The notes beneath the pieces were generated by a model. That model did no database searches, was not told the DNA's origin, and was given only the letters and a program-made list of their open reading frames with translations. The translations under genes and the position numbers were made by a program. Shown piece after piece: positions 14,104 through 26,986 of a stretch of DNA of 50,681 bases. Positions within the stretch are counted from its first letter, which is position 1, and every line of letters starts with the position of its first letter. Source of the DNA: Nocardiopsis chromatogenes YIM 90109 (GTDB lineage: Bacteria; Actinomycetota; Actinomycetes; Streptosporangiales; Streptosporangiaceae); NCBI RefSeq assembly GCF_000341185.1, contig NZ_ANBH01000137.1, positions 17,984-68,664 of the forward strand, written 5' to 3'.

Positions 14104-14118
14104 GCCCCGGCGGGGCGT

Positions 14119-14913
14119 CTAGAAGAACTCGTCCAGCAGGCGGTAGAACGCCAGGCGGCCGGGGTCGATGCGGTCGTCGCCGTAGTGGTGGGCGAACGCG
14201 CGGGCGAAGCCGGGGCCCCAGGACCGGCCGTCCTCCAGTTCGCGCAGGGCCAGCGCCACATCCAGGTGGCGGTCGGCCACGCCCAGGCGGCCGGGGTCGA
14301 CCACGCCCGTCCACTCCAGCGTCGCCGGGTCCACCAGCACGTTGTCCAGGGTCAGGTCCCCGTGGCAGACCACGCGGTCCTCCTCGGGCTCGTCGGGCAC
14401 CGACCGCTCCAGCTCGGCCAGCGCCTCCCGCGCGCTCATCCCCCGCCGCTCCTCGTCGAAGTCGTCGGCGTCCACCCGGCCCGCGCGCACGTTCTCGCGC
14501 GCCTGGGCCAGGGCGCTCTCCAGCCCGCGCGGGAACGGGCACTCCCCCGTCGGCAGGTCGTGCAGCCGCCGCGCCAGGCGGGCCACGGCCGCCACCACCG
14601 GGGCGCGCAGGTGCGCGGGCCAGTCCCCCGACGCCGGGCGTCCGGGCACCTGCGCCGAGACCAGCCACCCCGTGCCGCCGTCCTCGCCGGACTCCAAGGG
14701 GTCGGGGGCGGCCACGCCCGCACCGATCAGCCACCGGGCGCGCTCGGCCTCGGCGCGCAGCGCCGCGGGGTCCATGCCGATCTTGACGTACAGCGCCGCG
14801 CGGCCGCGGCCCGTCAGGCGCCACACCCGGTCGCCGGAGTCCCCTTCGGCCACCGGGGTCCAGCGGTACAGCAGGTGGCGGCGGCGCAGGCGGCGGCGGA
14901 CGGTCTCGATCAC
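14119..14913 (-). CDS. Aminoglycoside 3'-phosphotransferase-like kinase
   Basis: From GTG 14913 the protein has 264 residues, the usual APH(3') length. Seen motifs are LYVKIG (ATP-binding lysine), the catalytic loop VCHGDLTLDNVLVD near residue 181, and the metal-binding loop GVVDPGRLGVADRHLD, close to the family's IDCGRLGVADRYQD. The Cys of the usual DCG loop is Pro here. This could be a resistance enzyme, but actinomycetes hold many APH-like kinases with other roles. The start is preferred because the length fits and a TAGTGT sequence lies about 10 bases upstream, suggesting a leaderless message. Confidence 0.82.
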   Translation of the reverse strand: MIETVRRRLRRRHLLYRWTPVAEGDSGDRVWRLTGRGRAALYVKIGMDPAALRAEAERARWLIGAGVAAPDPLESGEDGGTGWLVSAQVPGRPASGDWPAHLRAPVVAAVARLARRLHDLPTGECPFPRGLESALAQARENVRAGRVDADDFDEERRGMSAREALAELERSVPDEPEEDRVVCHGDLTLDNVLVDPATLEWTGVVDPGRLGVADRHLDVALALRELEDGRSWGPGFARAFAHHYGDDRIDPGRLAFYRLLDEFF

Positions 14914-15041
14914 CCGCGCCACACTACCGGCCGCCGGAGATCCGGCCCCGCGGCGCCGATGAGTTCGGCGCGCGGGCCGGGTCTGAAGGGGTGAGAACGG
15001 CGCCCGGCCGGGGCGCCCGCTCACCGAAAGGACCCAGGGCC

Positions 15042-15881
15042 ATGGACGCGACCCCCGCCACCGCCGCCCCCGGCGGCCGCATCACCGCCAACGGCGTGGA
15101 CATGTACTACGAGGTCCACGGGCAGGGCGAGCCGCTGGTGCTGCTGCACGGCGCCCTGGTGGGCATCGGGTCCTGCTTCGGCGCGCTCCTGCCCGAGCTG
15201 GCCCGGGAGCGCCGCGTGGTCGCTGTGGAGATGCAGGCGCACGGGCGCACCCCCGACATCGACCGGCCCCTGCGGGTCGAGCACCTGGCCGAGGACATCG
15301 CCGCACTGGTGGAGGGCCTGGAGCTGGGCGAGGTGGACGTGCTCGGCTACAGCTTGGGTGCGGCCGTGGCCTTCCAGCTCGCGCTCACCCGGCCCCACCT
15401 GGTGCACCGCCTGGTGCTGGTGTCGATGTCCTTCCGCGCCGAGGGCATGTACCCCGAGGTGGCCGCGGGCATCGGCGAGCTGACGCCGCAGGACCTGGAG
15501 GGCACCCCCTTCCATGAGGAGTACGTGGCCGTGGCCCCCGACCCGGAGGGCTGGTCCGGGCTGGTCGAGCGCGTCAAGGACATGGACGCCCCCGGCAACA
15601 CCCCCGAGTGGACGCCCGAGCAGGTGTCCTCGGTGGCCGCGCCGACGCTGCTGGCCCTGGGCGACTCCGACATCGTGCGCCCCGAGCACGCCGCCGCCAT
15701 GTTCCGCCTGCTGGGTGGGGGCGTCCCCGGCGACCTGACCGGGCTGCCCTCGGCGCGCCTGGCGGTGCTGCCCGGCACGACCCACATCGGCGCCATGGAG
15801 CGCGAGGAGTACCTGGCCCCCATGGTCGCCGAGTTCCTGGCCGCCGACGCCGAGGACGCCGGGAAGGCCGGGGCCTCCTAG
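15042..15881 (+). CDS. Alpha/beta hydrolase
   Basis: A 279-residue alpha/beta-hydrolase fold protein. The oxyanion region is LVLLHGALVGIGS, the nucleophile elbow GYSLGAA, the acid GDSD and the catalytic histidine in PGTTHIG, all in the expected order. ATG 15042 follows GAAAGGA. The substrate is not predictable. It is followed 79 bp later by a second hydrolase gene in the same direction, possibly an operon but not closely related in sequence. Confidence 0.85.
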   Translation: MDATPATAAPGGRITANGVDMYYEVHGQGEPLVLLHGALVGIGSCFGALLPELARERRVVAVEMQAHGRTPDIDRPLRVEHLAEDIAALVEGLELGEVDVLGYSLGAAVAFQLALTRPHLVHRLVLVSMSFRAEGMYPEVAAGIGELTPQDLEGTPFHEEYVAVAPDPEGWSGLVERVKDMDAPGNTPEWTPEQVSSVAAPTLLALGDSDIVRPEHAAAMFRLLGGGVPGDLTGLPSARLAVLPGTTHIGAMEREEYLAPMVAEFLAADAEDAGKAGAS

Positions 15882-15960
15882 ACCCCCGCAGCCCCCCCGG
15901 GGGCGCCGCAGAGGCCGCCCCCTCCCCCCTCCCGATACGAGCACCGACAGGAGAACACCG

Positions 15961-16761
15961 ATGGACGTGGCCACCTCACGCGACGGCACCCGCATCGCCT
16001 ACGACCGGCGCGGATCGGGCCCGGCGCTGATCCTGGTCGACGGCGCCCTGGGGCACCGGGCGTTCAATCCCCACGGGGCCGCCCTGGCCGACCTGTTGCA
16101 AGACGCCTTCACCGTGCACACCTACGACCGGCGGGGCCGCGGCGACAGCGGCGACAGCGGCCCCTACGCGGTCGAGCGCGAGATCGAGGACATCGAGGCG
16201 CTGATCCGCGCCGCGGGCGGGCGGGCCCACCTGTTCGGCATGTCCTCGGGGGCGGTGCTGGCGCTGGACGCGGCCGCGCACGGGCTGGCGGTGGAGGCGC
16301 TGGCGCTGTACGAGCCGCCGTTCATCGTGGACGGCTCCCGCCCGCCGCTGCCGCCGGACTACGCGGTGCGGGTGGGGGCGCTGGCCGCCGGGGGGCGGCG
16401 GGCCGAGGCGGTGGAGTACTTCATGACCGCCGCGGTGGGCCTGCCCGCCGAGCTGCTCGGGGGCATGCGCGAGGACCCCTCGTTCGCGCGGATGGAGCAG
16501 GTGGCGCACACCCTGGCCTACGACGCGGCGGTGATGGGCGGCACCATGTCCGGGGTTCCGCTGCCGCCGCACCGGTGGGCGTCGGTGACGGCGCCGGTGC
16601 TGGTGGCCGACGGCGGCAAGAGCGAGCACACCTTCGCCGACGCCGCCGACGCCCTGGCGGCGGTGCTGCGCGACGTGCGGCGGGTCACCCTGGACGGGCA
16701 GACCCACGACGTGGACCCCGAGGTGCTGGCGCCGGCGCTGCGGGACTTCTTCGCCCACTGA
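15961..16761 (+). CDS. Alpha/beta hydrolase
   Basis: A 266-residue alpha/beta hydrolase. The N-terminus reads SRDGTRIAYDRRGSGPALILVDGALGHR, with the nucleophile elbow FGMSSGA, a strand VTAPVLVADGG and the catalytic His in DGQTHDVDPEVLAPALRDFF. This is the common actinomycete type with a histidine right after GQTH. Usually the first part has G.GP...V.GA. It is preceded by ACAGGAGAACACCG, a good ribosome binding site. The substrate is unknown. It is convergent with the metal permease gene. Confidence 0.85.
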   Translation: MDVATSRDGTRIAYDRRGSGPALILVDGALGHRAFNPHGAALADLLQDAFTVHTYDRRGRGDSGDSGPYAVEREIEDIEALIRAAGGRAHLFGMSSGAVLALDAAAHGLAVEALALYEPPFIVDGSRPPLPPDYAVRVGALAAGGRRAEAVEYFMTAAVGLPAELLGGMREDPSFARMEQVAHTLAYDAAVMGGTMSGVPLPPHRWASVTAPVLVADGGKSEHTFADAADALAAVLRDVRRVTLDGQTHDVDPEVLAPALRDFFAH

Positions 16762-16790
16762 GGGCGCCGGGGCGCCGGGGTGCGGCTGCG

Positions 16791-16815
16791 GGCCCGGGGC
16801 CGCCGTCCCCGGGCC
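16791..16815. terminator. Bidirectional hairpin between hydrolase and metal permease genes
   Basis: Arms GGCCCGGGG (16791-16799) and CCCCGGGCC (16807-16815) with a 7-base loop lie in the 63-bp gap of a convergent gene pair. Confidence 0.5.
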
Positions 16816-16824
16816 GCCCGGGGG

Positions 16825-17739
16825 TCAGGGGGCGGCGGCCGGGTCGCGGCCGGCCCGGCCGGCCCTGGCGGCGCGGGCCTGCCCGGCCCTGCGCAGCGCT
16901 CCGGCGGCCACCCCGTGGCGCGGGGCGAACAGGTAGGCCAGGGCGAAGGCGCAGGCCTGCACCGCCACCACCGCGCCGCCGGTGGCCGCGTCCAGGTGGA
17001 AGCTCAGGTAGGTGCCCAGCACCGAGGCGGTCACCGACACGGCCACCGCGATCACCAGCATCCGCTCGAACCGGTCGGTGAGCAGGTAGGCGGTGGCGCC
17101 GGGGACGATGACCATGGCCACCACCAGGATGATGCCCACCGCCTGCAGGGCGACCACCACGGTCACCGCCAGCAGGCCCAGCAGCAGCGCCTCCAGGCGG
17201 CGCGGGCTGAGGCCGATGGCGTGGGCGTGCACCCGGTCGAAGGCGTACAGGGTCAGGTCGCGGTGCTTGGCCAGGACCACCGCCAGCACCGCCGCCCCGG
17301 CCGCCAGCACTTGGACGATGTCGCCGTCGGAGACGCCCAGCACGTTGCCGAACAGGATGTGCATCAGGTCGGTCTGGCTGGGGATCTTGGACACCAGCAG
17401 CACCCCCACCGCGAACAGGGCGGTGAAGACCACCCCGATGACGGCGTCCTCCTTGACCCGGGAGGTCCGGTTGACCACGCCGATCAGGGCGACCGACCCG
17501 GCGCCGAAGACCAGCGCCCCCACGGCGAAGGGCAGCCCCAGCATGTAGGACAGCACGACGCCGGGCAGCACGGCGTGCGAAACCGCATCTCCCAGCAGCG
17601 ACCAGCCGATCAGCGTCATCCAGCACGACAGCACGGCGCACACCGCCCCGGCGACCACGCTGACCAGCATGGCGCGCCACATGAAGTCGAACTGCAGCGG
17701 CACGGTGAACCACTGGACCAGCGCGTTCAGCGCGTCCAC
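16825..17739 (-). CDS. Metal (Mn-type) ABC transporter permease
   Basis: A 304-residue membrane protein of the ABC-3 family (MntB/ZnuB/PsaC group) with about eight or nine hydrophobic segments. It has the conserved stretch SWMTLIGWSLLGDAVSHAVLPGVVLSY in near-canonical form and the later VVAMVIVPGATAYLLTDRF region. It forms the transmembrane channel for a divalent metal. The GTG start at 17739 overlaps the ATPase gene by 13 bp and follows GGAGGAGGAG. It is last in the binding protein-ATPase-permease operon. The metal is inferred from the binding protein's ligand set. Confidence 0.9.
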   Translation of the reverse strand: MDALNALVQWFTVPLQFDFMWRAMLVSVVAGAVCAVLSCWMTLIGWSLLGDAVSHAVLPGVVLSYMLGLPFAVGALVFGAGSVALIGVVNRTSRVKEDAVIGVVFTALFAVGVLLVSKIPSQTDLMHILFGNVLGVSDGDIVQVLAAGAAVLAVVLAKHRDLTLYAFDRVHAHAIGLSPRRLEALLLGLLAVTVVVALQAVGIILVVAMVIVPGATAYLLTDRFERMLVIAVAVSVTASVLGTYLSFHLDAATGGAVVAVQACAFALAYLFAPRHGVAAGALRRAGQARAARAGRAGRDPAAAP

Positions 17740-18551
17740 GGCGACTCCTCCTCCCGGTCGTCCCCGGCGGGCCGGTCGGGTCCGCCGGGCCCTGCGGCGC
17801 CGAGGCCGAAGGCGCGGGCCAGGCGCTCGGGTGTGAGGACCTGCTCGGGCGGCCCGTCGGCCAGGACGCGGCGCTGCAGCAGCACCGCCCGGTCGCAGAA
17901 GCCGCCCACCCCGGCCAGGTCGTGGGTGGACACCAGCAGGGTGCGGCCCTCGGCGCGCATGGCGCCCAGCACCCCGGTGATGGTGGCCTCCGAGCCCTTG
18001 TCGACGCCGGCGAAGGGCTCGTCGAGCAGGAACACGTCGGCGCCCTGGGCGATGCCGCGGGCCACGAAGGCGCGTTTGCGCTGGCCTCCGGACAGGGCGC
18101 CGATCTGGCGGTGGGCCAGGCCGGTCAGGCCGGTGCGCTCCAGGGCGGCGTCCACGGCGTCGCGGTCGGCGCGGCGGGGGCGGCGGGTGGGGCCCATGTG
18201 CCCGTAGCGGCCCATCATGACGACGTCGGCCACCCGCACGGGGAAGGCCTGGTCGATGCGCTCGCTCTGCGGGACGTAGGCGACCAGCCCCTGCTTGCGG
18301 GCCCGGTCGGGGGTGCGGCCGTGCAGGCGCACCTGCCCGGCGGCCAGCGGGACCAGGCCGATGAGGGCGGAGAAGAGGGTGGACTTGCCCGAGCCGTTGG
18401 CGCCCAGCAGGGCGCACACGGTGCCCGGGTCCAGGGTCAGGTCGGCGCCGTCCAGGGCGAGCACGTCGCCGTAGCGGACGGTCAGGCCGCGGGCGTCGAT
18501 GGCCGGGGCGGCCACGGCGGCGGCCTCGGGGGCGCGGGCGGGTGCGGTCAC
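17727..18551 (-). CDS. Metal (Mn-type) ABC transporter ATP-binding protein
   Basis: A 274-residue ABC ATPase. The Walker A motif is GANGSGKST, the Q-loop is in YVPQSERID, the signature is LSGGQRKRAFVARG, Walker B is VFLLDEPFAGVD and the switch histidine is in VSTHDL. The YVPQ..R.D.....V..VV.MGRYG stretch is typical for manganese/zinc importers. A GTG start at 18551 overlaps the binding-protein stop (GTGA). The C-terminal 25 residues are a Pro/Gly/Asp-rich extension. It energises the downstream permease. Confidence 0.92.
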   Translation of the reverse strand: MTAPARAPEAAAVAAPAIDARGLTVRYGDVLALDGADLTLDPGTVCALLGANGSGKSTLFSALIGLVPLAAGQVRLHGRTPDRARKQGLVAYVPQSERIDQAFPVRVADVVMMGRYGHMGPTRRPRRADRDAVDAALERTGLTGLAHRQIGALSGGQRKRAFVARGIAQGADVFLLDEPFAGVDKGSEATITGVLGAMRAEGRTLLVSTHDLAGVGGFCDRAVLLQRRVLADGPPEQVLTPERLARAFGLGAAGPGGPDRPAGDDREEESPWTR

Positions 18552-19549
18552 GGGGTGTCGCCCCCTTCCTCTCGTTCGTCCTGCCGGGTGCCGTCGGGGC
18601 GGGAGGGCGGCGGGTCGGCGGGCTCGCCGGTCAGGCCCTCGACGATGGTCTGCGCGTCGTGGCCGAGCAGGTCCAGGTAGGTGGGCACGGGGCCGTCGGG
18701 GCCCGAGAGCGAGTCGACGTAGAGCTGTCCGGCGAAGCGGGCGCCGCTCTCCTCGGCGACCTGGCGCTGGGCCTTGTCGTTGACGGTGGTCTCGCAGAAG
18801 ACGGCGGGGACCTCGTTGTCGCGGACGAACTCCACGGCCGAGGCGATCTGCCGCGGGGTGCCCTGGGAGTCGGCGTTGACGGCCCACAGGTACTTCTCGT
18901 CGAGGCCGGTGTCGCGGGCCAGGTAGGAGAAGGCGCCCTCGCAGGTGACCAGGGCGCGGGAGCCGACGGGCAGGCCCTGCAGCTCGGTCCGCAGGTAGTC
19001 GCCGACCTCGGAGACGCGGTCGGTGTAGGCGCGGGCGTTGGCGGCGTAGTCGTCGGCGTGGTCGGGGTCGAGCTCGGTGAGGGCGTCGCGGATGTTGGCG
19101 ATGTACACGGCGGCGTTGTCGGGCGACATCCAGGCGTGGGGGTTGGCGCGGCCCTCGTACTCGCCCGCGGCGATGGGGATGGTCTCCACGCCCTCGGTGA
19201 GGGTGGCGGTGGGGGCGTCGATGCGGTCGGTGAACTGGGCGAACCAGCCCTCCAGGCCCAGGCCGTTGTCGAGGACGAGGGCGGCGTCCTGGGCGCGGAC
19301 GAGGTCGTCGGGGGTGGGCTGGTAGCCGTGGATCTCGGCGCCGGGGCGGGTGATGGACTCCACCTGCACGTGGTCGCCGGCGACGTTGCGGACCATGTCG
19401 GCGATGACGGTGAAGGTGGTCAGGACCTTGGGGCGGTCGTCGCCGCCGTCGGCGGGTGCCGCGCAGGCGGCGCCGCCGAGCAGGGCGGCGGTGAGCGAGA
19501 CCGCTCCCCACAGGCGGAGTGAGGAGGATCGACCGCGAATGTTCGGCAT
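18548..19549 (-). CDS. Manganese-type ABC transporter substrate-binding lipoprotein (cluster 9)
   Basis: A 333-residue protein with a lipoprotein signal (hydrophobic segment, then GAAC with Cys29). The metal ligands expected for this family are visible as H74, H138, E204 (TCEGAFSYL) and D279 (YVDSLS). A His-His-Glu-Asp set is typical of manganese binders such as PsaA, while zinc binders usually have a third His. So manganese is the likelier cargo. The start is ATG 19549; a TTG six bases earlier is less likely. No clear Shine-Dalgarno is present. It leads the three-gene importer operon. An MntR-like regulator lies 10 kb away at 29.2 kb. Confidence 0.88.
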   Translation of the reverse strand: MPNIRGRSSSLRLWGAVSLTAALLGGAACAAPADGGDDRPKVLTTFTVIADMVRNVAGDHVQVESITRPGAEIHGYQPTPDDLVRAQDAALVLDNGLGLEGWFAQFTDRIDAPTATLTEGVETIPIAAGEYEGRANPHAWMSPDNAAVYIANIRDALTELDPDHADDYAANARAYTDRVSEVGDYLRTELQGLPVGSRALVTCEGAFSYLARDTGLDEKYLWAVNADSQGTPRQIASAVEFVRDNEVPAVFCETTVNDKAQRQVAEESGARFAGQLYVDSLSGPDGPVPTYLDLLGHDAQTIVEGLTGEPADPPPSRPDGTRQDEREEGGDTP

Positions 19550-19573
19550 GCCCAACTTTTACCACAGGTGGGC
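19550..19573. promoter_or_regulatory. Imperfect dyad before the metal importer start
   Basis: GCCCAAC (19550-19556) and GGTGGGC (19567-19573) are inverted with one mismatch around an AT-rich centre, immediately upstream of the importer ATG. It is a possible metalloregulator site, but it does not match a box I recognise. Confidence 0.25.
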
Positions 19574-19988
19574 TGAACTCGCTGTTTCGGGCCGTGGACG
19601 TCATGCGTTGCGGCGGCCCCGGCCGCCCTGTCGGCGCCTTCGGCCCTGGCCGCGGACGCCGTGCTCTGCCAGGATGCGGCCATGGACACCGACCGAAAGG
19701 CCGATGCCGCGTAGGCGGCCGGGACGAGTCCGTGCCGAGGAGCGCGTCCGCATGGAACTGCGCCGCCGGGCACGAAGTGGCGAACACGACACGATCGACG
19801 GGCTGTCGGCCGCGACCATGGCCCGGATCCGCCGCATCGAGGTCCTCCACCCGCGGATGTATCCGGGGTTCACAGGCGATCGGACCAGCTCCGCAGCGGA
19901 CCGAAAGAGCCGGTCAGGGCGTTGAGGGCGGGGTGCGGAAGCACGTGGATAGCTTTACGCCTCTCCGTCGACCCTCGAAGATGCGGCT
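19574..19988. other. Intergenic stretch, possible small gene only
   Basis: About 415 bp between the metal importer and the carrier-protein gene. The GC level falls toward the right end. I see no recognised gene; one short coding-like frame at 19704-19925 is listed separately. The junction at about 19930-19988 is AT-richer and may contain the promoter for the carrier-protein gene. Confidence 0.5.
19704..19925 (+). CDS. Possible small hypothetical protein or gene remnant
   Basis: A 73-codon frame from ATG 19704. Its central part has high-GC third positions and a sensible helical composition (RAEERVRMELRRRARSGEHDTIDGLSAATMARIRRIEVLHPRM in two pieces, residues about 10-55). GAAAGG lies just upstream but only three bases from the ATG. 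I recognise no family. It may be the tail of a lost gene. Low confidence. Confidence 0.28.
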   Translation: MPRRRPGRVRAEERVRMELRRRARSGEHDTIDGLSAATMARIRRIEVLHPRMYPGFTGDRTSSAADRKSRSGR

Positions 19989-20810
19989 ATGGATCCAGGT
20001 GTCGCGGCCTTGCTAGGGGCCCTTCTCGCTTTAATCGGCACAACGATTACGGCTGTTCTGACCAGTTGGTCAGCGCATCGCCAGACTCGAGCCCAGGCTC
20101 TCGTTCAGCACGAACAGCGACAACGGGAACAACAGGAAGAAGCACACGCGACGTTCCTCGCAACTGCAGCACAGAGCCGTGATGAGTTGGGCGACCTACT
20201 GCGCCTCCTGCGGTCGCAGCCCAGCCATCCGCGTATCGGGCAGCAGCTTGAACAGGCCCGATCACACGTCCGCGCCGTCCACCATGCTGGGGCGACGGTC
20301 GCTCTCAAGGGGCCCCCTGAAGTGCTGGAAGCTCGCCATCACGTGGAGAGCGGCGTGGCGATGTTCTTCGCCAGTCTGGCTGCCGCTCATGACGAGATCG
20401 CCGTCGGCGCCACCGGCTCCGAATACTTGCGCTCATGCGCACGCCAACAGTTGCAACTGCGCGGTGCGATGGAGCAGTTCGCGCATGCCGCTCGTCTTGC
20501 GACAGCACCACCCCCGGCAACAGTCGAGGACCAGGTCAACAGAGCAGAGCGAACTGCCATCGAAGCTGCTGATGGTGCGACCTTGTCCTGGTTGGTCGGC
20601 ATGACCGCAGATCTACTTCATGAAGCCCCGCAGCAGGTTGACCCGACGGAGTCCCCGTTGTCTCTCGGGCTGGACTCCATCCAATACATGCAACTTACGC
20701 GAGCAGCCAAGGAGCAGTTCGAGGTTCCGCTGGAGGAACTCTGGGATCTGCGCTCAGCTTCTCTTGCTCGGATCGCAAACCACCTGGAGGAGTCGCACCG
20801 CTCTGTGTGA
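19989..20810 (+). CDS. Membrane-anchored orphan protein with C-terminal acyl/peptidyl carrier (phosphopantetheine) domain
   Basis: A 273-residue protein of unusual layout. Residues about 5-27 form one transmembrane helix. Residues about 28-55 are Gln/Glu/Arg-rich and likely coiled coil. Residues 56-205 are helical with no family I recognise. Residues about 208-270 look like an acyl/peptidyl carrier domain: SPLSLGLDSIQYMQL, with Ser230 in the GLDS motif as the 4'-phosphopantetheine site, then AAKEQFEVPLEELWDLRSASLARIANHLEE. No ketosynthase, adenylation or other assembly-line gene is nearby. Codon 15 is TTA (20031-20033), rare in actinomycetes and bldA-dependent in Streptomyces. The GC content is clearly below that of the neighbours. 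The cargo and partner are unknown. Confidence 0.75.
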   Translation: MDPGVAALLGALLALIGTTITAVLTSWSAHRQTRAQALVQHEQRQREQQEEAHATFLATAAQSRDELGDLLRLLRSQPSHPRIGQQLEQARSHVRAVHHAGATVALKGPPEVLEARHHVESGVAMFFASLAAAHDEIAVGATGSEYLRSCARQQLQLRGAMEQFAHAARLATAPPPATVEDQVNRAERTAIEAADGATLSWLVGMTADLLHEAPQQVDPTESPLSLGLDSIQYMQLTRAAKEQFEVPLEELWDLRSASLARIANHLEESHRSV

Positions 20811-20839
20811 CAGGGAATGACATATTTTCTGTCACACAG
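20803..20839 (+). terminator. Terminator hairpin after the carrier-protein gene
   Basis: Perfect 11-base arms CTGTGTGACAG (20803-20813) and CTGTCACACAG (20829-20839) flank an AT-rich 15-base loop. The left arm includes the stop codon. It is a good hairpin without a following U-run. Confidence 0.6.
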
Positions 20840-21047
20840 GCTGACTCGTGCCCCGAGCGGCCTGGGCCGCGGCCTCCGGGCTCGAGGGCGGCTCCGTAAC
20901 GTTCTCTGCCACATGTCTGGGAAGAGCCGCGACCGTCCACCCCCTCCCCCGGCCCGGCGCGCTCACCCTGGCCCTGGCCAGCGCCGACTTCCTGGACCGG
21001 TTCCGCGCCCAGGCGCACAACCACCGCGCCTACCCCCAGACCCGTGC

Positions 21048-21216
21048 CGCTGATGGCACTTCAGCGCGAGCACCACCGCGAACAGCGCCCCGGGGGTGCT
21101 GGTCAGCTTGGTCGCCCACGTGGTCTCGTCGGGGTTGGGGGGAAGGACACGTGCAGCATCCGCGCTGAGGTCAACTTCTTGAACCGCGGGTAGGCCGTGC
21201 GCTCGATCGAGGTCAC
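21048..21216 (-). pseudogene. Tn3-family transposase N-terminal remnant (frameshifted)
   Basis: From GTG 21216 (after GGAGAGG) the first frame reads TSIERTAYPRFKKLTSARML, the standard start of Tn3-family transposases (DUF4158 region). The homology jumps to another frame near 21136 and goes on as NPDETTWATKLTS and LFAVVLALKCHQR, matching the next conserved block of the same domain. A one-base loss in a C-run near 21136-21142 explains the jump. The remaining roughly 900 residues of a Tn3 transposase are absent. It is a relic of a transposon, read toward the carrier-protein gene. Confidence 0.65.
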
Positions 21217-21320
21217 CGGCAGCCCTCTCCGGATGGGGGCAACGACCGCCGAACACGGTACGGCGGCCGGACACGGCGTCCCCGGCACTTCACCGAACCG
21301 CAACGGAACAGGCGCGCAAC

Positions 21321-21416
21321 GGCCTTGCGCGCCTGCTCCACGACGTCGGTGCAACCCCGCAGGTAGTCCTCCCTGTCTTCGGGGTCCACGGTGATGTGTC
21401 CGGCGATGATGAGCAT
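21321..21416 (-). pseudogene. Truncated antibiotic biosynthesis monooxygenase (ABM) gene start
   Basis: ATG 21416 follows a good GGGAGG site. The product begins MLIIAGHITVDPEDREDYL and DVVEQARKA, which is the first strand and helix of small ABM/YgiN-type proteins (normally about 95-100 residues). After about 32 residues the similarity stops exactly at an 11-bp inverted repeat, and the rest is unrelated. It looks cut by the event that brought the Tn3 piece. Confidence 0.6.
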
Positions 21417-21631
21417 GGTGCCTCCCGTGTCGGCTCTGCGGTGCCCCACCGGCCGCAGGGGCGCCACCGGTAGGCCTCGGAGAGCCGTGCATACTCATCG
21501 GTGCCCGGCCCTGCTCGAACCGGCGGCGCCGCCGCAAGGCACGGGGGAGAGTCGGGGCGCCGCCAGGCCTTCGATCTAGGCTGGCCTTGCCGGGCGGGGC
21601 GCCCGGGGTAGCGACGACGGGAGGGCGATCG

Positions 21632-22363
21632 ATGGCCGTGGCCGCCGGACGGTCGGGGCTGGACCGTGTGCTGGACGAGGCTGCCCGGATCAACGCCTTC
21701 TTCGCGGTCGAGCGCTCCCCCGCCGGGCGTGTGCGGCCCATGGAGGACCTCTGGGCCGACGGCGCGTTCCTGTCCGCCCGCATCGACGCGGTCCGCGAAC
21801 GCCTGGCCTCGCGTGCCGGGCGCCCGCTCGGCGACGTCGAACCGCGCGTGGCCGCCTCGATCTTCTTCCAGGGCATCGCCTCGCGGCTGCTCTCACCCGC
21901 CGTGGCCGCGGTGCTCATCGGCGGCGTGCTCCCCGACCGGCGGGCCCTCGGCTGGCACGCCGACGGCCCCACCCTGGCCCTGGCGCGCACAGGGGAGCCC
22001 GGGGCGCGGGTCGCCCCCGGGGACGAGGCCGAAGCCCTGGCCGGAGCCGCGCTGGAGGGCATGCTCGCCCCGCTGCTGGAGGCCGTGCGCGGCCGGGTCA
22101 AGGTGGCGCCGCGGCTGCTATGGGGCAACGCCGCATCCTCCCTGGCGGGCACGGTGGCCGCCCTGGCCGCCGCCCGCCCCGCACTGGCCGGTCCGGCCGT
22201 CGGGCTCGGGGAAGCGCTGATGGGCCGACCGCCCCTGCACGGCCTGGGCGGGCCCGGACCCGGGGGAACGATGGCCGACTCCTTCGTCCGCCGGACCTGC
22301 TGCCTGTACTACCGCATCCCCGGGTGCGGCAAGTGCGGCGACTGCGCCTTGCTGGAGCGGTGA
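21632..22363 (+). CDS. FhuF-like (2Fe-2S) ferric-siderophore reductase family protein
   Basis: A 243-residue protein. The C-terminus carries the FhuF cysteine motif C-C-x10-C-x2-C (RRTCCLYY...KCGDCALL), which in E. coli FhuF binds an unusual [2Fe-2S] cluster used to reduce ferric siderophores in the cytoplasm. The middle contains the conserved PRLLWGNAASSLAG stretch. ATG 21632 follows GGGAGG. No siderophore transporter is adjacent. It is convergent with the sugar permease gene, with a palindrome between them. Confidence 0.85.
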   Translation: MAVAAGRSGLDRVLDEAARINAFFAVERSPAGRVRPMEDLWADGAFLSARIDAVRERLASRAGRPLGDVEPRVAASIFFQGIASRLLSPAVAAVLIGGVLPDRRALGWHADGPTLALARTGEPGARVAPGDEAEALAGAALEGMLAPLLEAVRGRVKVAPRLLWGNAASSLAGTVAALAAARPALAGPAVGLGEALMGRPPLHGLGGPGPGGTMADSFVRRTCCLYYRIPGCGKCGDCALLER

Positions 22364-22368
22364 GCGGC

Positions 22369-22386
22369 GGCCCCGGCGCCGGGGCC
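22369..22386. terminator. Short palindrome between convergent genes
   Basis: A perfect 18-bp palindrome (GGCCCCGGC / GCCGGGGCC) fills the 24-bp gap between the FhuF-like gene and the sugar permease gene. It is a plausible bidirectional terminator, with a small loop only if the centre opens. Confidence 0.4.
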
Positions 22387-22387
22387 C

Positions 22388-23302
22388 TCACCCCTTCAGC
22401 GCCCCGGCCATCAGACCGCGCATGAAGTAGCGGCCCAGCACCAGGTAGATCACCAGCGTCGGCAGCGACGCCAGAACCGCGGCGGCCATCTGCTGGTTGT
22501 AGGGCACCACCATCGATCCGGCCACGTTGTTCAGCTGCACCGTCACCGGCCAGCTCCCCGGGCCCGTCAGGAACACCGCGAACAGGAAGTCGTTCCACGC
22601 CGAGGTGACCTGCCAGATCAGCGCCACCGCGAACGCCGGTGCCGACACCGGCAGCACCACGTGGGCGTAGGTCCGCAGCAGCCCGGCGCCGTCCACCCGC
22701 GCCGCCTCGATCAGGGTCTGGGGCAGCGAGGAGTAGTAGTTGCGGAAGATCAGCGTGCAGATCGGGATGCCGTAGACGGTGTGCGCCAGGATCAGCGGGA
22801 ACAGCCCGCCCATCAGCCCGGCCCCCACCAGCATCTGCTGCAGCGGGATCATCACCGCCTGGTAGGGGATGAACATCCCGAACAGGAACAGTGTGAACAC
22901 GGTGTCGGCGCCCGGGAAGCGCCACTTGGACAGCACGTACCCGTTCAGCGACCCCAGCAGCGCCGCGGCCGCCGCGCTGGGCACCACCAGCCTGACGCTG
23001 TTCCACAGCCCCGCCCCCAGCGCCTCCCAGGCCGCCGACCACCCCTCCAGGCTCCAGGTCTGCGGCGGCAGCCAGGCCCGGTCGGCCCCGGCCTCGGCGA
23101 AAGGCTTGAACCCGGTGACCACCAGCACGTACAGCGGCATCAGGAACACCGCCGCCAGCAGCACCAGCACGGTGAACCGCACCGCCGGGCCGACCCGGCC
23201 GCCGCCCGGCGCCCGCCCCGATCCGCCTCGCCGCCGCTCGGCCGCCGCGCCCGCACCGCGCACGGCCCCGGCGGCCGCCGTCCCGCCCCCTGCGCGGCTC
23301 AT
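22388..23302 (-). CDS. Carbohydrate ABC transporter permease (MalG-type)
   Basis: A 304-residue binding-protein-dependent permease with a long Arg/Gly-rich N-terminus and six hydrophobic segments. The EAA loop is LIEAARVDGAGLLRTYAHVVLP, as in MalG-type proteins. The C-terminal signature YFMRGLMAGALKG is typical of sugar permeases of this class. ATG 23302 overlaps the stop of the upstream permease gene (ATGA). It forms the channel with the other permease. It ends the three-gene operon; no ATPase gene follows. Confidence 0.9.
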   Translation of the reverse strand: MSRAGGGTAAAGAVRGAGAAAERRRGGSGRAPGGGRVGPAVRFTVLVLLAAVFLMPLYVLVVTGFKPFAEAGADRAWLPPQTWSLEGWSAAWEALGAGLWNSVRLVVPSAAAAALLGSLNGYVLSKWRFPGADTVFTLFLFGMFIPYQAVMIPLQQMLVGAGLMGGLFPLILAHTVYGIPICTLIFRNYYSSLPQTLIEAARVDGAGLLRTYAHVVLPVSAPAFAVALIWQVTSAWNDFLFAVFLTGPGSWPVTVQLNNVAGSMVVPYNQQMAAAVLASLPTLVIYLVLGRYFMRGLMAGALKG

Positions 23303-24252
23303 CGGCCCTCGCTCCGTTCCTTGCGCACGGTCCACACCAGGTAGGGCAGCACGAGCACGGCCACCGCCAGCAGCATGTAGGCGGCGATCGCCGCCCCCTT
23401 GGCCGGGTCGCGCACCTCGAAGACGGTCGTCCACATGTACACCGCCGGGACATCGGCCACGATCTGCTGGCCCGCGATCGCGATGACCAGGTCGAACACC
23501 TTCAGGGACATGTGCCCCAGGATGATCACCGCGGTCAGGGTGACCGGGCGCAGCTGCGGCAGCACCACGTGCCGGTACACGCCCCACTCCGAGCAGCCGT
23601 CCACCCGCGCCGCCTCGCGCAGCTCCTCGGGCACCCCGCGGAACCCGGCCAGGTACAGCGCCATGATGTAGCCGGACAGCTGCCAGACGGCGGGCAGCGC
23701 CATCGCCGCCATCCCCAGGTTCGGCGCGGTCCACCACTCGTTGACCAGGAAGTCCAGCCCGAGGTGGACGAACAGGGCGTTGAGGCCGGTGGCGCGCTCG
23801 GCCGGGGCCGGGTTCATCAGCCAGCGCCACACCACTCCGGTCGCGATGAACGACACCGCCATCGGCGCCAGGAACAGGGTCCTGAAAACCGATTCGCCGG
23901 CGATTCCCTTTTCGAGCAGCAGGCCCAGCAGCCACCCCAGCACCAGCGCGCCGCCCACGAACACCACGGTGAACACCGCGGCGTTGGCCACCGCGCCGGG
24001 CCACCGGGCCTCCTGCCACAGCGCGGCCATGTTCTCCAGGCCGACGAAGGAGGCGTCGTCGATGGGCTTGTGCTTGTCGCTGAGGGCCAGGCGGGCGTTC
24101 CAGCCGATCATCCCGTAGACGAACACGGCGATGAGCAGGATGGACGGGGAGATCAGCAGCAGGCCCGGCAGCCAGGCGCGCACGCGGTCGCGCCCGGCCG
24201 CCGGGCGGCGCCGGGCGGTCGCGCCCGCCCGGCCGGGCACGCGCGCGCTCAT
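23299..24252 (-). CDS. Carbohydrate ABC transporter permease (MalF-type)
   Basis: A 317-residue permease with six hydrophobic segments and an EAA loop ELREAARVDGCSEWGVYRHVVLPQLRP. The region LSDKHKPIDDASFVGLENMAALW between the first helices is typical of the glucose/mannose-type subgroup. ATG 24252 overlaps the binding-protein stop (ATGA). It is the partner of the MalG-type permease downstream. Confidence 0.9.
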   Translation of the reverse strand: MSARVPGRAGATARRRPAAGRDRVRAWLPGLLLISPSILLIAVFVYGMIGWNARLALSDKHKPIDDASFVGLENMAALWQEARWPGAVANAAVFTVVFVGGALVLGWLLGLLLEKGIAGESVFRTLFLAPMAVSFIATGVVWRWLMNPAPAERATGLNALFVHLGLDFLVNEWWTAPNLGMAAMALPAVWQLSGYIMALYLAGFRGVPEELREAARVDGCSEWGVYRHVVLPQLRPVTLTAVIILGHMSLKVFDLVIAIAGQQIVADVPAVYMWTTVFEVRDPAKGAAIAAYMLLAVAVLVLPYLVWTVRKERSEGR

Positions 24253-25523
24253 TCGTCCTGCGCGGCCTGGGAGGCCTCGTCCAGGGCGTCCTGGAGCGCT
24301 TCGGTGTCGCCGTCCTGCAGGTACAGGCCCACGGCGGTGTCGACGGAGTTCTTCCACCGGTTGTCGGCGGCCACCCCGTGCCAGAAGGACCCGGCCAGCT
24401 CGGGGCCGGACTGCCACTCCCCGAGCGCCTCGGACAGGTAGGGGCTGTCGGCGTACATCTCGGGGTCGGCGTCCTCACGGGCGGGGATGGAGCCCTTGAG
24501 GGGGTTGAACGCGTCCTGGCCCTCCCGGCTCGCGGCCAGCTCCAGCCAGGCGGTGGCGCCCTCGGGGTTGGGCGCGCCCACCGGCAGGGTGAAGCTGTCG
24601 GACAGCCACAGGTAGGTGCCCTCGGTGCCGGGCGAGGGCGCCCAGTCGTAGTCCTCTCCGGCGGTCATGCCCAGCTCGTCGAAGTACCCGGCGGCCCAGT
24701 CGCCCATGACGGTGAAGGCGGCCTCGCCCTCGGCGACGCGCCGGGAGGCCTCCTGCCAGTCCTCGGAGGCCGACTCCTCCTGGGTGTGGGCCAGGATGGC
24801 CTCGAAGTCGGCCAGTGCGTCGGCGACCTCGGGGGTGCCCCAGTCGGCGCCGGGCTCCCACAGGGCGTTGTAGCCCTCGGTGCCCAGGGAGCCGAGCAGG
24901 ACGCTCTCCAGCAGGTGGTCGACGGTCCACTGGGCGCCCACGGCCATGGGGACGGCGCCGGTCTCCTCCTCGACGGCCTCCAGGTCGGCGATGAGGTCGT
25001 CCAGGGTCTGGGGCGGCTCCTCGATCCCGGCCTCCTCCAGCACCGAGGGGTTGTACCACAGCACGTTGGAGCGGTGGATGTTGACGGGGACCGAGTAGAC
25101 GCTGCCGTCGTAGCTGATCTGTTCGAGGAGCTGGTCGGGCATGGCCTCGCGCAGGCCGTGCTCGTCGTAGAAGTCGTCGAGGGGTTCGAGGTACCCGGCC
25201 TCGATGTAGTCCTGGAGCTCGGCCCCGGCGTGGCCCTGGAAGGAGTCGGGCGGGTCCTGGCTCTGCAGCCGCCCCTCCAGCACGGCCTGGGCGTTGGTGC
25301 CCGAACCCCCGGCCACGGCGGCGTTGACGAACTCGGTGTCGGGGTGCTGCTCCTCGAACATCTCGATGAGGGCGTCGAGGCCGGCCTCCTCGCCGCCGCC
25401 GGTCCACCAGGAGAAGACCTCGACCTGGGCGGCGTCCCCGCCGCCTGTGCCCCCGCCGCAGCCGGTGGCCGCCAGGCCCATTGCCAGGGCCGCCGCGGGG
25501 GCCGTCGTCCAGCGTCTGTGCAT
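24249..25523 (-). CDS. Carbohydrate ABC transporter substrate-binding lipoprotein (possible glucose type)
   Basis: A 424-residue secreted lipoprotein. The signal ends in LAATGC with Cys22, followed by a Gly-rich linker. The mature part starts VEVFSWWTGGGEEAGLDALIEMFEEQHPDTEF, a motif strongly associated with the glucose/mannose binding proteins GtsA/GlcS of Pseudomonas, Thermus and archaea. ATG 25523 follows GGGAGGGAG. It leads the operon with two permeases. As in many actinomycetes, no dedicated ATPase is present, so a shared MsiK-type ATPase is expected elsewhere. TTGACA (25626-25631, minus strand) is a possible -35 element. Confidence 0.85.
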   Translation of the reverse strand: MHRRWTTAPAAALAMGLAATGCGGGTGGGDAAQVEVFSWWTGGGEEAGLDALIEMFEEQHPDTEFVNAAVAGGSGTNAQAVLEGRLQSQDPPDSFQGHAGAELQDYIEAGYLEPLDDFYDEHGLREAMPDQLLEQISYDGSVYSVPVNIHRSNVLWYNPSVLEEAGIEEPPQTLDDLIADLEAVEEETGAVPMAVGAQWTVDHLLESVLLGSLGTEGYNALWEPGADWGTPEVADALADFEAILAHTQEESASEDWQEASRRVAEGEAAFTVMGDWAAGYFDELGMTAGEDYDWAPSPGTEGTYLWLSDSFTLPVGAPNPEGATAWLELAASREGQDAFNPLKGSIPAREDADPEMYADSPYLSEALGEWQSGPELAGSFWHGVAADNRWKNSVDTAVGLYLQDGDTEALQDALDEASQAAQDE

Positions 25524-25641
25524 GCCGCTCCCTCCCCGGGCGGCGCCCCCTGCACCGAACCACCCGGAAAATGTGCCGTGGATCACTGCGATGCGTCCGC
25601 AATCCATTCACTCGCGGGGATCAGTTGTCAATAGTCCAGAT

Positions 25642-25672
25642 TTGAACCTCACGCGGCGTGAGGACCTAGCGT
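25642..25672 (+). promoter_or_regulatory. MerR/TipA-type promoter with operator dyad
   Basis: TTGAAC (25642-25647) and TAGCGT (25667-25672) are separated by 19 bp, the overlong spacer typical of MerR-activated promoters. The spacer holds a perfect dyad, CCTCACGC-g-GCGTGAGG (25647-25663). As I recall it, the tipA promoter of Streptomyces lividans has nearly the same core, CACCTCACGT followed by ACGTGAGG. The regulated gene, a TipA-like regulator, starts at 25756, so autoactivation is expected. Confidence 0.8.
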
Positions 25673-25755
25673 CGTCGCCACGGCACCGCGAAGGGGCGCC
25701 TGAGGCGCTCCGGGATGCGGGCACCGGCGGATACGGGACAGGAGGCGGAGCGGGC

Positions 25756-26514
25756 ATGGACGGCGCGGACCGCACGTGGAAGGTGGGCGAGCTGGCCCGG
25801 TCGACCGGGCTGACGGTGCGCACGCTGCACCACTACGACGCCATCGGCCTGGTGCGGCCCTCGGCGCGCACCGCCTCCGGGCACCGGCTCTACACCGGGG
25901 CGGACGTGCGCCTGCTCTACCGCACGCTGGCCCTGCGCGATCTGGGGCTGTCCCTGGACGAGGTGCGCTCGGTGCTCGAAGGGGGCGGGCCGCGCCTTGG
26001 TGAGCTGCTCGCCGACCAGTTGGAGCAGGTCGAGCGGCGCATCGCCGCGCTGCACGCCCTACGCGGGCGCCTGTCGGCGGTGGTGAGCGCCTCGCGCGGC
26101 GGCCCGGCTCCGGAGCCGGAACGCTTGATGCGCGTGATCGAAGGGATGAGCGGAGTGGACGAGACGATGCGGACCTACTTCAGCGAGGAGCAGATGCGGA
26201 CTCTGCACCGGCGGCGCGAGGAGCGCGGCGAGGAGGCGGTGGCCGCCGACGTGGCCGCCTGGCCGGAGCTGATCGCGGCCGTGGGCCGGGCCGTGGAGGA
26301 GGGCGCCGACCCCGCCTCGGAGCGGGGTCGGGAGCTGGCCGAGCGGTGGATGCGGCTGCTGGAGTCCTTCCACGGCGGCGACGAGGGGCTGAAGGCGTCG
26401 CTGTACCGGATGCGGGAGGACAACAGCGAGGAGATCGCCGCCGAGCACGGCGGCCCCACGCAGGAGATGATCGACTTCATCACCCGCGCGAACGCGGCGC
26501 GCGAGGCCGGGTAG
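25756..26514 (+). CDS. MerR-family regulator with TipAS-type drug-binding domain
   Basis: A 252-residue protein. Residues 8-75 form a MerR helix-turn-helix (WKVGELARSTGLTVRTLHHYDAIGL). A dimerisation coiled coil follows (LEQVERRIAALHALRGRL). The C-terminal 120 residues resemble the TipAS antibiotic-recognition domain (YFSEEQMRTLHRRREERGEEAVAADV, ELAERWMRLLESFHGGDEGLKASLYRM). TipA binds thiopeptides and activates its own promoter. ATG 25756 follows ACAGGAGGCGGAG. A promoter with a 19-bp spacer and TipA-like dyad lies upstream. The TipAS cysteine that captures thiopeptides is not seen, so the ligand may differ. Confidence 0.9.
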   Translation: MDGADRTWKVGELARSTGLTVRTLHHYDAIGLVRPSARTASGHRLYTGADVRLLYRTLALRDLGLSLDEVRSVLEGGGPRLGELLADQLEQVERRIAALHALRGRLSAVVSASRGGPAPEPERLMRVIEGMSGVDETMRTYFSEEQMRTLHRRREERGEEAVAADVAAWPELIAAVGRAVEEGADPASERGRELAERWMRLLESFHGGDEGLKASLYRMREDNSEEIAAEHGGPTQEMIDFITRANAAREAG

Positions 26515-26596
26515 GCGCTGTCGCGGGGTCGGGGGCGGGGCGCGTGCCCTGTCCCCGGGCCCTGCGCGGCCCGCCGACCGGGCGCGCCGCCCTGCG

Positions 26597-26986
26597 TCAG
26601 GGGCGGCGGCCCGCCAGGACGCAGAACTCGTTGTCCTCCGGGTCGACCAGGACCACCCAGCTGTCGTCGGCGCCCTGGCCCACGTCGGCGCGGCGCGCGC
26701 CCAGGCCGATGAGCCGCTCGACCTCTGCGGCCTGGTCCCGGTCGGAGGGGCTGACGTCGATGTGCAGCCGGTTCTTGACGGTCTTGTCCTCGGGAACCTG
26801 CGCGAACGTGATCACCGGCGGCACCGGGCCGCCGCGGCTCCCGTCGTCGGGGATCGCCTTCGGGCCGATCATGACGACCCCCTCGTGCTTGTCGAGCACC
26901 TCATAGTCCAGGACCGCGCACCAGAACCCGGCGAGGCCGTCGGGGTCGGCGCAGTCGACGGCGAGCTCGGTGAACCTGCTGGTCAT
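26597..26986 (-). CDS. VOC/glyoxalase-fold protein
   Basis: A 129-residue VOC (vicinal oxygen chelate) superfamily protein of the common actinomycete type. It has TELAVDCADPDGLAGFWCAVLDYEV at the start, NRLHIDVSPSDRDQAAEVERLIGLGARRADVGQ in the middle and a DPEDNEFCVL end. The His in LHIDV and Glu in DNEF are the usual metal-ligand positions. The substrate is unknown; relatives are often called glyoxalase or bleomycin-resistance-like on fold alone. Start ATG 26986. Confidence 0.85.
   Translation of the reverse strand: MTSRFTELAVDCADPDGLAGFWCAVLDYEVLDKHEGVVMIGPKAIPDDGSRGGPVPPVITFAQVPEDKTVKNRLHIDVSPSDRDQAAEVERLIGLGARRADVGQGADDSWVVLVDPEDNEFCVLAGRRP

Follow-up and report, generated by a model that had tools for sequence, protein, structure and literature searches.

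Nearly every carrier domain is interpreted as belonging to an assembly line, and acyl and peptidyl carriers of the type of VirA ACP5a/5b and the Segniliparus CAR PCP are soluble domains or free-standing proteins. DltC is soluble as well and is encoded together with its partners. DltC is reported to work at the membrane with the partners DltA and DltB and to serve a membrane acyltransferase (PMC9338922). AcpM is a cytosolic protein in its own right. It is reported to bind the transporter MmpL5, which places a carrier at a membrane protein (PMC11633376, PMC12346298). The protein described here is encoded in a window of 50,681 nucleotides (the whole stretch of DNA that was analysed) from Nocardiopsis chromatogenes YIM 90109. 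It shares with the PF00550 carriers of VirA and Segniliparus the fold, the GLDS-type serine and the order of helices, but it differs from them in carrying an N-terminal membrane helix and a bundle of its own, and in that no synthase was found linked to it. Unlike DltC, it is tethered and alone, and unlike AcpM, it is fused to its anchor. Three carriers among the nearest by carrier profile (L056, L032 and L060; 35-42 bits) look free-standing and have no membrane helix, unlike the window protein; we assume that they resemble partners of acyl-AMP ligases. Standalone proteins of two types, MDQG and MDAG, have the membrane helix, the bundle and the GP motif of the window protein but no carrier, and this part is called the N-module below. 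The accessible portion of the open-licence literature on membrane-anchored and orphan carriers does not describe such a layout, with its own membrane module, a carrier and no pathway. The protein is a known PP-binding domain in a new architecture, and the original prediction of a membrane-anchored carrier protein that is both orphan and accessory is supported. We tentatively read it as a membrane-tethered, cytoplasm-facing holo-carrier that would be loaded in trans by unlinked enzymes, which we hold to be quite possible rather than probable.

The ORF (19989..20810, plus strand) encodes 273 amino acids that form a membrane helix, a four-helix bundle and a carrier domain, as indicated by Pfam, AlphaFold2 and the full-length homologues. 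It starts with ATG at 19989, a choice backed by the MDP/MDQ/MDA beginning common to relatives, and stops with TGA at 20808-20810. Thus, the ORF proposed earlier is real, but its end at 20839 was placed 29 bases past the true stop. A terminator-like hairpin with 16-nt arms that are 88% complementary overlaps the stop codon (20803..20839, plus strand). The region 20795-20850 folds at -26.3 kcal/mol, with a z of -5.4 against shuffles, and the hairpin is probably a terminator; it was not among the outputs of a consensus terminator scan. A sigma-70 consensus scan of 19700-21600 gave no promoter-like site. The full-length AlphaFold2 model, built on an alignment of 44 rows from loci gathered in this analysis, has a mean pLDDT of 93.1 and a pTM of 0.65, and because of this pTM the mutual placement of the domains is unsure. 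The model runs from a long N-terminal helix (residues 3-76) through bundle helices 83-107, 110-138 and 144-172 to a linker and the carrier. An NCBIfam scan of the window protein returned FtsL alone, at E 0.11 and below the family cut-off.

The carrier domain (20574..20804, plus strand; helices 196-210, 230-244, 248-252 and 259-272) is supported by Pfam, AlphaFold2 and structure alignment. As a single sequence, residues 201-266 match Pfam PP-binding (PF00550) with 36.5 bits (E 5.7e-9, cut-off 20.8). Three other full-length fused homologues, in the genomes G1005, G025 (Bailinhaonella thermotolerans) and G590, also exceed this cut-off, with 36.4, 25.1 (G025) and 21.5 (G590) bits; the last two matches are narrow, covering only profile positions 1-48 (G025) and 1-49 (G590) of 67, and the C-terminal part of the carrier is divergent in both. 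Modelled alone, the carrier has a pLDDT of 90.0 and aligns best to 8ahq_C, the holo-ACP5b of VirA (Z 12.6, rmsd 1.4, 76 residues), and also to many other solved ACP and PCP chains. In Foldseek, its E-values are no more than modest: the best is 5.2e-3, and none reaches 0.001. The fold is not wholly independent of homology, as other carriers were among the alignment rows given to the predictor. When solved structures were searched by sequence, the carrier matched only 2mf4, and weakly (E 0.0086). Ser230 (codon TCC, 20676..20678, plus strand), the predicted phosphopantetheine site, opens helix II of the modelled fold and lies in a GLDS motif that is invariant in 4/4 fused proteins. The original prediction had named a missing carrier fold or homologues lacking the serine as grounds for rejecting it; the fold is present in both the full-length and the carrier-alone models, and all four full-length homologues, counting the window protein, retain the serine. 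At a contig edge, the host genome also shows a match to phosphopantetheinyl transferases of the PF01648 type. It is improbable that the carrier fold is a protein-docking domain only, free of phosphopantetheinylation. Such a domain would suit the membrane orphan context and the divergence that the G590 and G025 carriers show in their second part, but GLDS is exactly what stays conserved while the rest drifts.

The predicted transmembrane segment, residues 4-24 (19998..20060, plus strand), is the sole hydrophobic segment, with a mean Kyte-Doolittle value of 2.19 against 1.16 for the best later 21-mer. The flanking charges are -1 before and +2 after it in the window protein, and -1 before and +2 to +4 after it in the other three fused proteins. 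Because the flanks are negative before and positive after the segment, the bundle and the carrier are predicted to lie on the cytoplasmic side. The four-helix bundle covers about residues 50-172 (20136..20504, plus strand), with a block pLDDT of 94-98 as far as residue 170 in the AlphaFold2 model and with generic helical-bundle matches. In structure comparison it matches many helical bundles, best 4k0d_A (Z 14.7, rmsd 2.3, 135 aligned). We claim no homology for it, to 4HB sensors included, because such bundles match many unrelated folds and a Z of 14.7 lies in the generic range. Pfam found nothing over cut-off outside the carrier domain in the four fused proteins, and a sequence search of solved structures with the N-module gave no match. 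The middle of the protein had been called unrecognised; it is a predicted bundle that, together with the single transmembrane helix, is a common actinobacterial module which also occurs on its own.

The standalone N-module has about 170-185 amino acids, and 25 standalone members are 24-30% identical to the window protein. Four standalone modules were scanned with Pfam, and no family exceeded its cut-off in them. The MDQG and MDAG types differ by a seven-residue stretch and are widespread in actinobacteria (e.g., L095, L094, L040 and L039). Position 150 is His in 8/9 MDQG rows, Ala in 15/16 MDAG rows and Cys in the fused proteins. In alignment A3, D65, E66, F126 and C150 are invariant in the four fused proteins and occur in 0/25 standalone modules, and R158, also invariant in the fused proteins, occurs in one of the 25. 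Standalone N-modules were also seen as equal-scoring pairs in opposite orientation: one pair, at G985:C1 4686-5033 and 10319457-10319804, lies near both contig ends, as terminal inverted repeats would give, and the other is at G851:C1 4755528-4756043 and 5159568-5160083.

Full-length fusions are rare. In the host's family they were found in at least three of 341 genomes: the host itself (G000), Bailinhaonella thermotolerans and G590. The genus of G486, presumably Streptomyces, had at least one in 392 genomes (G1005), and a class-level sample at least one in 394 (the host again). Among relatives of G1005, at least one of 248 genomes has the fusion, again G1005; a second match, G776, covers profile positions 1-178 only. 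These counts are lower bounds, since only some first-look candidates per genome were scored (e.g., 7 of 58). Two further samples gave 0/220 and 0/35, with no positive control and with part of the first-look candidates scored. A single-protein search matched 4/200 genomes, two of them through the N-module only. Pattern-based single-sequence contig scans gave no named relative for the window protein, and for the homologue they returned Bailinhaonella itself alone. On its own, the N-module is present in many genomes: it was found at E 1e-12 or better in 60/392 genomes, one of them the fused G1005, and all the other matches listed end at or before profile position 199 of 275.

The original prediction held that no enzymes using a carrier are encoded nearby, and this was confirmed for the 39 other window ORFs scanned with Pfam, a subset of the called genes that includes some overlapping frames: none belongs to the ketosynthase, acyltransferase, condensation or adenylation families. 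At the G1005, G590 and G025 loci, where 10 of 22 other called genes were scanned per locus, these families were likewise absent. A linked polyketide, nonribosomal peptide or fatty-acid pathway is thus ruled out for the tested neighbours, as no carrier-using enzyme family was found among them. The carrier profile, which recovered 19/20 Pfam-found carrier loci of the host, detected no second carrier domain in the window or at the three other fused loci. Nor did it reveal, in 11 loci of standalone modules (8-13 kb), a split version in which the carrier is encoded separately next to the N-module. Among the scanned neighbours of the four loci there was neither the adenylation enzyme nor the MBOAT protein of a DltC-type context. 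An alpha/beta hydrolase in the window (14991-15881) matches PF00975 Thioesterase with 27.6 (cut-off 26.4) and Abhydrolase_1 with 62.6, and it sits in a stretch common to relatives. The window gene lies between ZnuA with an ABC-3 importer on one side and an FhuF-like protein with a binding-protein ABC importer on the other. The G1005 gene is adjoined by a cupin and a HAD protein, with a CoA-transferase III about 5 kb away, the G590 gene by a methyltransferase and DUF4240, and the G025 gene by a multicopper oxidase and a sensor kinase. No immediate neighbour family is common to any two of the four fused genes; farther out, G1005 and G025 share FAD_binding_3, and G590 and G025 share GNAT, both being common families.

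These neighbourhoods also bear on the idea that the protein acts in trans as the carrier for a single unlinked pathway (polyketide, peptide or siderophore) and would tether the assembly line of that pathway to the membrane. We consider this unlikely: there is no cluster among the tested neighbours, and the families directly beside the four genes differ, so that no common pathway is visible. It would be consistent with the 19 other PP-binding matches of the host genome, most of them in long frames. Some of the nearest carriers by profile, within the set fetched, are presumably free-standing ACPs or aryl-type carriers, which would also fit.

Across the three lineages of fused proteins, identity amounts to 30-44% in the N-module and 20-27% in the carrier, and within the close pair G590/G025 to 72% and 60%. 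Among 74 gap-free carrier columns, seven are invariant and four of these are GLDS. The chance that all four GLDS columns are invariant is about 3e-5 if columns are independent. For G590/G025, the carrier has a dN/dS of 0.257/1.069 and the N-module one of 0.168/1.121, and therefore both parts are under purifying selection in this pair. In the more distant pairs, which are saturated, the carrier shows no sign of constraint (e.g., G1005/G025, 0.869/0.747). When 38 N-modules were placed in a tree, a branch separated those of the four fused proteins from the rest (support 90/70, seen in 92% of 200 bootstrap trees). This support falls short of the star threshold of the tool, and the window protein has a long branch. 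The carrier tree (29 rows, of which the 25 non-fused ones were chosen by likeness to the fused carriers and are a biased sample) is unresolved: the four do not form one clade, the history takes three changes, and 0% of bootstrap trees have a single clade, which is nevertheless not rejected (p-AU 0.396). Since the clade was not recovered, the carriers could stem from more than one fusion or swap, as far as such trees can suggest.

The stronger conservation of the N-module than of the carrier, and its occurrence alone, which means that it has a job without a carrier, would fit a membrane sensor or regulator in which the attached bundle would read the phosphopantetheine or acyl state of the carrier, with no biosynthetic role. 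Free ACP is known to be read by other proteins. Carrier enzymes are absent at the tested neighbours of all four loci, and the bundle residues that mark the fused proteins would suit such a reader. Other ACPs dock on membrane complexes, as is reported for MmpL5-AcpM (PMC11633376, PMC12346298). However, an output domain was not found, no regulator gene is common to the four loci, the sensor kinase adjoining the G025 gene only, and the fused-only residues may be either functional or simply the shared ancestry of one clade. We therefore regard a sensor as possible but doubtful. A related idea, which we also consider rather unlikely, is that these are single-gene mobile tethered carriers that use phosphopantetheine outside biosynthesis. 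The bundle would sense or react with the acyl group of its own carrier, and the protein would by itself be a membrane reporter of the acyl/CoA state of the cell or a self-contained acyl donor. The reaction by the bundle would rest on Cys150 and the charged residues D65, E66 and R158; all the fused proteins share them, whereas in the 25 standalone modules they are lacking or, for R158, found once.

The gene lies in an accessory stretch of 1.44 kb (19880..21319) with syntenic flanks, as seen by alignment to G008, a genome of the same genus. G008 aligns at about 92% to window positions 14116-19879 and 21320-26886 and carries, in place of the window's 1,440 bases, 547 bases without significant likeness. 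G124, G102 and G073 have both flanks and no gene. In G143, the alignment begins only at window position 21309 and runs rightwards, with 840 unaligned bases to its contig start. A protein search found no match in these five same-genus genomes (G008, G124, G102, G073 and G143). Thus, the gene was rightly called accessory, as same-genus relatives share the flanks without it. The insertion cuts two small ORFs that, judged by eye, are intact in G008, 21213-21467 (minus strand) and 19680-19880 (plus strand); the former resembles an ABM-type monooxygenase by eye, and its fragment in the window has no Pfam match. The lower GC that had been noted is confirmed, with a GC of 0.62 and a GC3 of 0.639, compared with a GC3 of 0.879-0.983 in 26 other window genes. 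The TTA codon reported at codon 15 is present (Leu15, 20031..20033, plus strand), but the bldA-type control drawn from it is unsupported: one TTA is seen where the position-specific composition of the gene predicts 1.35, and of the other three fused genes only one has a TTA (G590, codon 150), G1005 and G025 having none. Because the composition predicts it, the codon is not evidence of bldA control, and by its sequence it is a mark of low GC, not of regulation.

Just downstream of the gene, at the right end of the accessory stretch, is a frameshifted N-terminal remnant of a Tn3-family transposase (21050..21216, minus strand; 28 residues at 71% identity, then 32 at 38% in another frame). We infer that a transposon may have delivered the gene. 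Plasmids and phages gave no match for the window protein. One plasmid record matched the G1005 protein, via its carrier part only, and among viral contigs one standalone N-module was matched. This module, of 170 amino acids (L142:4291-4803, IMG/VR), adjoins a terminase-like ORF (a label given by eye), and the membrane-bundle module may travel with phages too. An insertion beside a Tn3-family remnant and an N-module next to a terminase-like ORF would agree with mobile conflict or defence cargo acting, e.g., against phage or rival elements at the membrane. Such a role is very improbable: the PADLOC matches of the window protein (LmuB, E 0.0016; JetC, E 0.0054) are weak and cover only residues 13-103, the coiled-coil part, five other proteins tested with PADLOC gave no match, and Pfam scans, the method applied to the neighbours, named no defence system there.

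For the tethered carrier loaded in trans, we counted the PP-binding match in 4/4 fused proteins, Ser230 at the start of helix II, the kept GLDS and the flanking charges. We also counted the dN/dS of the close pair, the PF01648 match, the 19 other PP-binding matches, the N-module grouping, and the lack of both carrier enzymes at the tested neighbours and a second carrier at the loci. Against it stand the predicted status of the carrier modification and the putative status of partner enzyme, cargo and acceptor, in addition to the weak N-module grouping, the unrecovered carrier clade, the divergence of G590 and G025, the saturated dN/dS and the pTM of the full model. According to this reading, a host phosphopantetheinyl transferase would arm Ser230, and an unlinked acyl- or aminoacyl-activating enzyme, or an acyltransferase, would load the thiol. 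The anchor and the bundle would keep the loaded arm at the inner face of the membrane, where a membrane or membrane-associated partner could take the acyl group, and the bundle would probably set partner choice or oligomeric state. Since the gene resembles cargo that consists of a single gene, it would draw its partners from widespread housekeeping or pathway enzymes of the host instead of from a cluster of its own. Conditional cargo fits the rarity and patchy spread of the fusion better than a core acylation step does. In summary, four species have a conserved, armed-looking and membrane-fixed carrier without an assembly line found beside it. This would mean either an unrecognised acylation step at the actinobacterial membrane or a use of phosphopantetheine outside biosynthesis.
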